NCBI GenBank assembly: GCA_017432645.1
Contig: JAFRIU010000042.1
Span: 1 to 37,873, forward strand
Source: Bacilli bacterium
Lineage (GTDB): Bacteria; Bacillota_I; Bacilli_A; RF39; UBA660
Direction of reading: 5' to 3'
DNA: 37,873 nucleotides
This document shows positions 19,325 to 22,337 of the stretch, in pieces. Each line of letters starts with the position of its first letter. The stretch's first letter is position 1. Made by a program: the position numbers and the translations under genes. Below the pieces are notes generated by a model. The model did no database searches and had not been told where the DNA came from. It worked only from the letters and a program-made list of their open reading frames with translations.

Positions 19325-19383
19325 TTCTATCACCTACTTTATTTTACCATAAAATCGAAATAGGAAACAACTACTTCTTGATA

Positions 19384-19411
19384 AAATAAAAGAGTATCTT
19401 TTGAATACTCT
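19384..19411 (-). terminator. Terminator of the 56-residue membrane protein gene
   Basis: Minus strand AGAGTAT pairs with ATACTCT (19391-19397 with 19405-19411) around TCAAAAG, followed by TTTATTTTAT. It closes a monocistronic unit. Confidence 0.7.
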
Positions 19412-19431
19412 CTATACTTTAAGTTATTTTC

Positions 19432-19602
19432 CTACTTTGAGGTTTTAAATATTTCCGCTACTAACGTTGTGGCTAATCCACCGAGGCCACCGGAAAGCAT
19501 TGCAGTAACAATAACTCCTATAGTGATCAACGCATCAGCAACTATTCTTGTTAAAACTGGAGGCCCCTTCTGTTCAAATATTGCTTTTATATCACGAATC
19601 AT
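19432..19602 (-). CDS. 56-residue membrane protein under riboswitch control
   Basis: A short protein with a soluble charged start (MIRDIKAIFEQKGPPVLTR) and one long hydrophobic, Gly-rich segment (about residues 20-50, containing AMLSGGLGGLATTL), ending in KTSK. I do not recognise a family. The start is ATG 19602, set by AAAGGAG about 9 nt upstream; a longer frame to 19632 would run into the terminator of the leader. It is the only gene between a yybP-ykoY-type (Mn2+) riboswitch and its own terminator, so it is expressed alone and probably in response to manganese. Known genes under this riboswitch are Mn exporters and P-type ATPases; this one is far smaller. A role as a Mn-homeostasis microprotein or regulator of an exporter is inference. 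Confidence 0.72.
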   Translation of the reverse strand: MIRDIKAIFEQKGPPVLTRIVADALITIGVIVTAMLSGGLGGLATTLVAEIFKTSK

Positions 19603-19632
19603 AATACTCTTCTCCTTTAGCCTCTTATACAC

Positions 19633-19744
19633 AAAAAAGAGACTTAATACTTTTGTATCAAGTCTCGTTCCATTTCTTCAATTAATGAATCCAGAATAAA
19701 TCGACTGACGAATTCATTTTTTCAGAACTACTCCCCATCAACTG
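19633..19744 (-). ncRNA. yybP-ykoY (manganese) riboswitch with terminator platform
   Basis: The minus-strand leader begins near 19743 and carries the hallmark GGGGAGTAG (19728-19736). GTTC next to it pairs with GAAC near 19668. A stem AATGAAT/ATTCATT encloses the conserved TCGTCA (19706-19711) and CTGG of the opposing metal-binding loop. AACGAGAC (19662-19669) closes the aptamer. AGTT at the 5' end can pair with GACT. The same GACT lies in the terminator stem GAGACTTGATAC/GTATTAAGTCTC (19639-19666, one G-T), which is followed by six T. Aptamer and terminator are mutually exclusive, as expected for an ON switch. I compared it with the Lactococcus sequence from memory; P4 looks reduced. Confidence 0.8.
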
Positions 19745-19749
19745 TATAC

Positions 19750-19778
19750 ATTATACCATATTTACACGATTTTGGCAA
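19750..19778 (-). promoter_or_regulatory. Strong promoter of the Mn riboswitch unit
   Basis: Minus strand TTGCCA (19773-19778), 17 bp, TATAAT (19750-19755), with an extended -10 TGG. It lies directly behind the mutS stop. Confidence 0.85.
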
Positions 19779-19781
19779 ATT

Positions 19782-22337
19782 TTACTTGGTTTCCTTCATC
19801 TCTTTTTTGAGGTCATATAAATAATTTAGGGCTTCCATTGGAGTCATTTCTAATGGATTTATTTTTTCTAGTTGTTCTTCTATTTTACTCTTTTGCTCTT
19901 CTTGAGCTTCTTCTGCAAATTCAAATAAACTAGTTTGTGTAAATGTTTCTTTCTTTACTTTTTTATGCTCATAAACATCTAAGATAGTAGTCGCACGATC
20001 AATCAAATTTTTTGGTAGCTGTGCAAGGGATGCTACATGAATTCCATAACTTTTATCTACTGCTCCTGGTTTTACTTTATGTAGAAATGTTACCTTTCCA
20101 TTTTCTTCTTGTGCAGATACATGCACATTTTTTAATTGTTTTAAATCTTTTTCAAGTATGGTTAATTCATGATAATGAGTTGAGAATAGAGTCTTTGCTT
20201 TAATTTTGTCGTGGATATATTCTAAAATAGCTTGGGCTAGACTCATTCCATCGTAAGTTGCTGTTCCTCTTCCTAATTCATCAAATAGAATCAAACTATC
20301 TTCTGTTGCATTTTGAATGGCATAGTTTGCTTCTTTCATTTCTACCATGAAGGTAGATTCTCCACTTACTAAGTCATCACTTGCTCCTATTCTAGTAAAG
20401 ATTTTATCAAATATAGGAAGAGTAGCACTTTTACATGGTACAAAACAACCCATTTGGGCCATGATTACTGTAATCGCACATTGCCTCATATAAGTAGATT
20501 TTCCAGCCATATTAGGCCCTGTAATTAATAAAATACTAGTTGTTTTATCCATAATTACATCATTTTCTACATACTTATCTTTCATAACTTGTTCTACGAC
20601 TGGATGTCTACATTCTATTAGTTTTAGATTTTTTTCTTTTGTAATCTCTGGTCTTGTGAACTTATATAAATCAGAAACTGTTGAGAAGGATTGTAACATA
20701 TCTATTTCACTAATTACTTTTGCCGTTTTTAATAAAGATTGACTGTATCTTTTAATCACTTCTCTAACGTCCATAAAGATTTTATATTCCAAAGAGATAA
20801 TTTTTTCTTCTGCTCCTAAAATAATGTTTTCTTTTTCTTTTAAAAGTGGAGTTGTGAATCTTTCACAGTTAGCTAGAGTTTGCTTTCTTTCATAACCAAA
20901 TTCTTCTTTTACTAAACTGCATTGTCCTTTGGATACTTCGATATAGTAACCAAATACTTTATTAAAGCCTACTTTTAGATTCTTAATTCCTGTTTTTTTC
21001 TTCTCTTCTTGTTCTAGTTCTAGAATAAAGTCTTTACTACCACTACTGATTCTTTTCAATTCATCTAATTCTTGATTATATCCTTCTTTAATTAAATGTC
21101 CTTCATGTAGGGTAAAAGGTGCATCTTCTAGAATTGTTTTTTCTAGAAGCGTATAAATCTCTTCTAATGGCTCTATTTTCTTATCATATTTTAATTCTTC
21201 TAAAATAGACTCAATATGTGGTAATTCTTGTAGCGAACTTTTTAGTTGTAATAAATCTTTTGCATTCAAATTACCATAAGTAATTCTGGCTACTAATCGT
21301 TCTAGGTCATATACTTTATCTAAGGCTTTGATTAAATCTTCTCTTAGAATGAATTCTGTACTTAAAAGAGAAACAAAATCATAGCGCCTTTCTATTTCTT
21401 TTTGATTGGTTAATGGGTTTAAAATATTATGTTTTAGTGTACGACTTCCCATTGCAGTTTTACATTTATCTAATAACCAAAAAAGAGAATACTGACGGTC
21501 TCTATTCCGAATGGTTTCTACTAATTCTAGGTTTTTAATGGTATTGGAGTCAAACTCTAGGTACATGGAAGAGGAAATCACTTCACATGGTTGAAGATGA
21601 TGCAAATCTCCTTTTTTAGTTATTAAAATATAGGATAATAATTGTCTCAATGTTTCTATTAAACGAATATCTTCTATTTTTTCATAAATATAGGTATATT
21701 CTTTATCTTCTTCTTTTTCTTCTTCTAAGATTGTTACTAGAATATTGTAATTGGTTCTTAGAATTTCTACGATTTCTCTATTAATTCTTTTATTTACGAT
21801 GACTTCTCGAAACCCTTTTCTTATGATTTCATGAATGCATTTTTCTTTTTCGCCATCAACTAGAAAGGCTTTTACTTCTCCGGTTGAAACATCTGCATAA
21901 CTAATACCATAACAATATTCTAGATCATAGATACTAGCGATATAGTTATTACTTTTCGCATCCAGACTAGAATCCATTCTTGTTCCCTTAGTAATTACTT
22001 GAATGACATCTCTTTTGACCATTCCTTTTACTTCTTTTGGATCTTCTAATTGTTCACAGATAGCTACTTTATAGTCTTTATCAATTAGTTCATCTACGTA
22101 TGAAGTATAAGCATGGTAAGGAATTCCACACATTGGAACTTTTTCGTTTAATCCTGCTTGTTTTCCAGTTAGGGCTAACTCTAGTACTTTTGATGCTAAA
22201 ATAGCATCTTCAAAAAACATCTCGTAGAAATCTCCAAGACGAAAGAAAAGAATGCAATCTTCGTATTGATCTTTTATTTCCATATATTGTTGCATCATTG
22301 GGCTTAATTCATTACGATTTACTTCGCTTCTTCTCAT
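19782..22337 (-). CDS. mutS: DNA mismatch repair protein MutS
   Basis: Recognises mismatches and small loops and recruits MutL. The 851-residue product has the mismatch-binding FFRLGDFYEMFFEDA (Phe-x-Glu, about residues 33-47), connector and lever domains, the clamp region with KVGFNKVFGYYIEVSK, and the ATPase with Walker A TGPNMAGKST, Walker B ILFDELGRGTATYDG and the STHYH switch. It ends in a helix pair for dimerisation. Full length. The start ATG 22337 is preceded by GGTGAT; upstream in-frame GTG/TTG codons belong to that site. A terminator separates it from the gene upstream, so it has its own weak promoter, and no mutL is adjacent. Confidence 0.98.
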   Translation of the reverse strand: MRRSEVNRNELSPMMQQYMEIKDQYEDCILFFRLGDFYEMFFEDAILASKVLELALTGKQAGLNEKVPMCGIPYHAYTSYVDELIDKDYKVAICEQLEDPKEVKGMVKRDVIQVITKGTRMDSSLDAKSNNYIASIYDLEYCYGISYADVSTGEVKAFLVDGEKEKCIHEIIRKGFREVIVNKRINREIVEILRTNYNILVTILEEEKEEDKEYTYIYEKIEDIRLIETLRQLLSYILITKKGDLHHLQPCEVISSSMYLEFDSNTIKNLELVETIRNRDRQYSLFWLLDKCKTAMGSRTLKHNILNPLTNQKEIERRYDFVSLLSTEFILREDLIKALDKVYDLERLVARITYGNLNAKDLLQLKSSLQELPHIESILEELKYDKKIEPLEEIYTLLEKTILEDAPFTLHEGHLIKEGYNQELDELKRISSGSKDFILELEQEEKKKTGIKNLKVGFNKVFGYYIEVSKGQCSLVKEEFGYERKQTLANCERFTTPLLKEKENIILGAEEKIISLEYKIFMDVREVIKRYSQSLLKTAKVISEIDMLQSFSTVSDLYKFTRPEITKEKNLKLIECRHPVVEQVMKDKYVENDVIMDKTTSILLITGPNMAGKSTYMRQCAITVIMAQMGCFVPCKSATLPIFDKIFTRIGASDDLVSGESTFMVEMKEANYAIQNATEDSLILFDELGRGTATYDGMSLAQAILEYIHDKIKAKTLFSTHYHELTILEKDLKQLKNVHVSAQEENGKVTFLHKVKPGAVDKSYGIHVASLAQLPKNLIDRATTILDVYEHKKVKKETFTQTSLFEFAEEAQEEQKSKIEEQLEKINPLEMTPMEALNYLYDLKKEMKETK

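Follow-up and report, generated by a model that had tools for sequence, protein, structure and literature searches.

A predicted compact Mn2+-class riboswitch upstream of a 56-codon membrane protein gene and its sister leaders in a family of gut Bacilli

A single-gene unit in the mutS-nusB gap

The 37,873-nt stretch of Bacilli DNA analyzed here (the window) carries, in the gap between mutS and nusB (19333-19782), a riboswitch-open reading frame (ORF) unit all parts of which lie on the minus strand. The unit begins with a sigma-A-type promoter (19750..19778) composed of TTGCCA, a 17-nt spacer, and TATAAT, with an extended -10 (TG before the -10) and 11/12 matches, in keeping with the strong promoter that the original prediction had placed here. 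This is followed by a predicted compact aptamer of the Mn2+ (yybP-ykoY) class (19656..19742) and, overlapping it, by an intrinsic terminator hairpin of 12 pairs (19639..19666), found by a terminator scan and recognizable in the sequence, whose T-run extends to ~19633; shuffles of the region contained on average 0.2 terminators of such kind. The terminator 5′ arm, GAGACUUGAUAC, is at the same time the 3′ strand of the aptamer's L1/P1.1 (the GAGAC/P1 strand), so that, judged by their sequences, aptamer and terminator compete for GAGAC, as had been claimed. The same arrangement, with the aptamer (A/G)AGAC strand contained in the terminator 5′ arm, is seen in at least 42 of 55 leaders.

Further downstream, a ribosome-binding site (AGGAG, 19612..19616) stands ~9 nt upstream of the ATG (19602) of a 56-codon ORF (P0001, 19432..19602, stop at 19432) predicted to encode a helical membrane protein, a layout that supports the notion of a solitary microprotein as the sole target. 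A weak hairpin with a T-rich tail lies 3′ of the ORF (19381..19411; 7 pairs at 19411-19391), before the nusB promoter region. It may be the gene's own terminator, which the original prediction had included; the structure is visible but weak, and was absent from the output of the terminator scan.

The ORF is probably coding, as its codon score of 0.07 nats per codon falls within the range of the neighboring genes, which average 0.28 with a minimum of 0.03, and exceeds the scores of the out-of-frame windows without exception (maximum −0.05). The protein has two predicted helices and, starting near residue 20, a hydrophobic segment; a single-sequence structure model was all helical (pLDDT 80, pTM 0.40). 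No match was obtained with this model in a structure search or with the protein sequence in Pfam, NCBIfam, and PHROGs. Homologues were likewise not found in 99 relatives (two weak matches, E 0.03-0.08) or among GTDB genomes and contigs, viral contigs, phages, and plasmids, so the conservation of the leader-ORF pair in relatives, whose failure had been named as a possible refutation, was not observed. Synteny of mutS, nusB, and xseA holds throughout the genus, but the mutS-nusB gap is variable (L160-L188), being short in many species and holding unrelated small ORFs in others. Neither the intervals read out from sister species nor a covariance-model search of 59 relatives (model R1, see below) gave a leader in this gap, indicating that the leader-ORF unit is species-specific as far as sampled.

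Assignment of the leader to the Mn2+ riboswitch class

The aptamer is organized in the order P1.1, L1 (GGGAGUA opposite GAGA), P1.2, P3.1, L3 (UCGUCA/CUGG), P3.2, and P4, with no P2. In the window this reads as GGGGAGUAG, a stem AAUGAAU/AUUCAUU enclosing UCGUCA...CUGG, and then AACGAGAC. Both class motifs can be recognized: GGGGAGUAG with ACGAGAC or GCAAGAC opposite in L1, represented here by GGGGAGUAG and AACGAGAC, and CGUCA with CYGG opposite in L3, represented by UCGUCA and CUGG. GGGAGUAG is present in 54 of the 56 family members. Nearly all of them, the window copy included, keep the Mn-coordinating A of UCA, the adenine that in the Lactococcus lactis riboswitch (A41 in L3) coordinates Mn2+ (PMC6754395). 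P1.2, P3.1, P3.2, and P4 are backed by covariation, P3.2 and P4 being short in the window. The P2 helix and four-way junction of the class were not found, the window leader forming a three-way junction; P2 replaces P4 in some family members, and since ATPase leaders outside the family (e.g., L122) also look P2-less, this helix is seemingly not essential.

The original prediction had looked to the Rfam yybP-ykoY model (RF00080) as a check, and here the outcome was negative: no match to the window even at E = 5, and none in the host genome or in 145 genomes of the family. This silence does not count as evidence against the assignment, because in an Escherichia coli control RF00080 scored the mntP leader at 41.6 bits, below its own 45-bit cutoff, and did not list alx. 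The model therefore under-detects the Mn2+ riboswitch class and seems to need rebuilding. The best Rfam resemblance of the window was to SSRC10 (RF02617; 19.4 bits, E 0.13), which gave a significant match to a sister leader (L043:1473-1569, E 2.4e-4). In Streptococcus pyogenes, SSRC10 was described as a small RNA whose locus lies 5′ of a putative calcium transporter gene (PMC3675131). Probably, this RNA is what results when the streptococcal Mn riboswitch preceding a Mn2+/Ca2+ ATPase terminates transcription; unlike the window leader, that riboswitch controls a P-type ATPase and is catalogued as an sRNA.

As Rfam gave no match in the window, relatives were sought directly. A search with the conserved-loop pattern retrieved two further copies in the host genome plus elements in sister species, and an alignment of thirteen compact leaders (A2), all from non-exporter genes and with the window sequence included, was used to build model R1. 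R1 identified six copies in the host genome (C3 twice, C9, C17, C20, and C38, the last being the window) and matches in 23/59 relatives, 14/193 sampled family genomes, and 42/296 genomes of the class, fractions that are lower bounds owing to the stricter filters of the large searches. One weak family match (L115; 26.7 bits, 19% GC) is probably spurious and was disregarded. Outside the family, the 41 R1 elements preceded P-type cation ATPases (n = 31), CaCA exchangers (n = 4), MntP (n = 2), SPFH proteins (n = 2), and OadB-like proteins (n = 2), the ATPase, CaCA, and MntP targets being assigned by Pfam and the OadB-like sodium-pump subunits by reading of the sequence alone. Since R1 had been trained on leaders of non-exporter genes, the exporter targets of these matches provide an independent check of the class. 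In a 22-kb E. coli region R1 gave a single match, the mntP switch itself, albeit a weak one (E 0.25).

A second model, R2, was built from 42 leaders, i.e., the 41 elements from outside the family (37 of them before P-type ATPase, CaCA, or MntP genes) and E. coli mntP; it holds no sequence from the host family, although R1, to which its training alignment was fitted, included the window sequence. Across the 37.9-kb window R2 gave one match only, at 19742-19656 (48.3 bits, E = 5.8e-10), and it recovered E. coli alx, absent from the training set, with an E value of 4.5e-8. The two E. coli leaders, found by the same covariance models as the window copy, differ from it in their larger size and in controlling Mn exporters; they are described as acting on translation rather than via an intrinsic terminator. 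Covariation pointed in the same direction. Among 56 family members, with 96% of cells paired, both-side changes numbered 261, whereas shuffles gave 80 and slid structures no more than 78. This contrast with the controls is large, even if fitting the alignment to the structure works in favor of the latter. Covariation was also seen in a smaller set of 22 homologues. Taken with the exporter targets of the homologues, these data identify the window leader, at the level of sequence, as a compact, P2-less member of the Mn2+ (yybP-ykoY) class, as originally proposed.

Sister leaders and their target genes

Descriptions of Mn riboswitches place genes of Mn homeostasis, chiefly exporters, under their control. 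No cation or Mn exporter lies downstream of the window leader, its target being the 56-residue orphan, and the same departure is seen across the genome. Beyond what the original prediction had covered, the window leader, with its degenerate P1.1, is one of six in a host genome of ~1 Mb and one of ~55 in the sampled family (~50 of them from relatives), mostly placed before non-transporter genes. The five other host leaders (G000:C3, C9, C17, and C20; loci L093, L037, L038, and L092) precede an SPFH protein, a 138-residue transmembrane protein, small ORFs located between rpoC and rpsL, a 234-residue membrane protein, and a 132-residue lipoprotein encoded closely upstream of a SecA-like gene. None of the six host targets is a known Mn gene or metal exporter.

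In the family as a whole, the targets comprise nine lipoproteins or membrane proteins with a common F-x-P-G-E-H...G-Y-E pattern (two, C17 and C20, belong to the host), seven Nuc_deoxyri_tr2 proteins (deoxyribosyltransferase-like enzymes), five SPFH proteins (one in the host, C3) plus two NfeD-SPFH operons, a single CaCA exchanger, and singletons, among them the 56-residue protein. The Nuc_deoxyri_tr2 target is a protein of ~145 residues found in at least seven species (L104, L044, and L065, among others). The only exporter exception within the genus is a CaCA gene preceded by a leader scoring 26.6 bits (G028:C12). Inspection of 19 ATPase and 19 CaCA stretches of the genus for hidden leaders gave a best score of 15 bits, although a few ATPase leaders could have been missed as the ATPase gene starts were estimated. 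In the host, whose assembly is 95% complete, no PF00689 ATPase match was found; a CaCA exchanger is present and lacks a Mn-class leader. The latter gene is preceded by a T-box-like GGTGGTACCACG leader (L258, G000:C43, ~865-905), with no Rfam match at gathering in the stretch tested.

The mostly non-exporter targets within the family, set against the 37 exporters among 41 targets outside it, indicate that the riboswitch was redeployed in the host clade. We would go further, if only tentatively and with slightly less than even confidence, and suggest that the clade turned a Mn2+ exporter riboswitch into a multigene regulon device serving lipoproteins, SPFH/NfeD proteins, deoxyribosyltransferase-like enzymes, and species-specific microproteins, in which metal sensing by RNA would act as a wide signal and the 56-residue protein as a new metal-induced effector. 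Going by the company of the sister targets, our guess is that cells under metal or envelope stress may produce the peptide as a small membrane protein.

The larger result is that one family of gut Bacilli redeployed a known metal riboswitch. Its ~55 sampled leaders, mostly before other genes, offer proteins of unknown function a regulon that can be tested directly. With six copies in a single 1-Mb genome, they also exemplify the expansion of a metal riboswitch within one lineage, and the family, with its count of zero under RF00080, exposes how that model under-detects the class.

A literature search for yybP-ykoY together with SPFH retrieved no paper from the collection searched. Another family of the class (L136 and L138) also has Mn-class leaders before SPFH proteins, which extends the SPFH link beyond the host family. 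In other families such leaders were observed before look-alikes of the sodium-pump decarboxylase beta subunit (L135 and L140).

Proposed switch and alternative readings

We consider it likely that the window leader is a transcriptional ON switch of the Mn2+ class whose single target gene encodes a 56-residue membrane peptide, and that it is one of six regulon copies that moved from metal exporters to envelope or uncharacterized genes. The metal would bind between loops L1 and L3 and stabilize their docking; in the metal-bound state the GAGAC strand (P1.1/L1) would be held in the aptamer, the overlapping terminator would be blocked, and RNA polymerase would read through, so that the peptide would be made when metal is plentiful. 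That Mn2+ is the ligand is suggested by the conserved core, and the ON direction by analogy with L. lactis, where an ON switch has a terminator that likewise shares the P1 strand with the aptamer (PMC11087558). Relative to this L. lactis yoaB-type riboswitch (RF00080), the window leader has the same L1 (GGGGAGUAG.../...ACGAGAC), the same L3 (UCGUCA/CYGG), the same helix order P1.1-P1.2-P3.1-P3.2-P4, and a terminator overlapping the 3′ strand of P1. It differs in the missing P2, with a three-way instead of a four-way junction, in a very weak P1.1, in an orphan membrane protein taking the place of an exporter, and in the lack of an RF00080 match. Unconstrained folding favors a different fold for the window aptamer; this, the lack of ORF conservation, and the absence of known Mn genes among the six targets count against the proposal.

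The weak P1.1 is where an alternative reading finds its footing. In the window this helix has 2 contiguous pairs and a duplex energy of −0.4 kcal/mol, the weakest of the 55 family leaders (median run in the family, six), for which reason switching may be impaired in this copy. As the first two P1.1 pairs nucleate antitermination in L. lactis (PMC11087558), the window copy may work, work poorly, or be decaying. If it were decaying, the aptamer would still fold but with P1.1 lost; transcription would mostly stop at the terminator, the main product would be a short terminated RNA, and the peptide would arise by leakage. The R2 score, the lowest of the six genomic copies (53-68 bits for the other five), the species-specific ORF, and the listing of the related S. 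pyogenes leader as a small RNA (SSRC10; PMC3675131) are consistent with such decay. However, promoter, aptamer core, P1.2, P3.1, terminator, ribosome-binding site, and an open, gene-like ORF are all intact, and interrupted P1.1 helices also occur in several other leaders, some of them before ATPases. On balance, we regard decay as unlikely, though a serious contender.

Less probable still, and in our view rather doubtful, is that the fold was retained while its ligand or signal drifted, toward another divalent metal or pH, as might suit an envelope-stress regulon. The mostly non-exporter targets of the family and the mostly leaderless cation P-type ATPase and CaCA genes of the genus would fit this scenario, as would the altered L3 of some copies, namely, CAACA in three of the six host leaders and, in L008, CGUCU, which is without the Mn-coordinating A. 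The window, in contrast, keeps UCGUCA and GGGGAGUAG exactly, like most exporter leaders, and CAACA-type L3 loops are also found before MntP, CaCA, and ATPase genes outside the family.

The original prediction had likened the peptide to MntS, a small protein linked to Mn sensing and produced when Mn is scarce. A small membrane protein under a Mn-class switch, in a host whose CaCA exchanger has no such leader, would agree with a role as a transporter-binding small regulator of manganese. Yet the switch proposed here is expected to be ON at plentiful Mn, the opposite response, and the searches gave no homologue, no structural match, and no link to a transporter gene, leaving this idea unsupported and, to our mind, improbable. 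Chance resemblance to a riboswitch, for which the lack of an Rfam match might be invoked, can be practically dismissed given the independent model match, the covariation, and the exporter targets of the homologues.

Other RNA elements were encountered near Mn-class leaders. One is an OLE RNA of a sister species (L096:4071-4684; 415 bits, E 1.5e-118), with a Mn-class leader and a CaCA exchanger ~2 kb away, and at a separate locus (L099:1100-1176) a NiCo riboswitch is located downstream of a P-type ATPase gene that itself follows a Mn-class leader.
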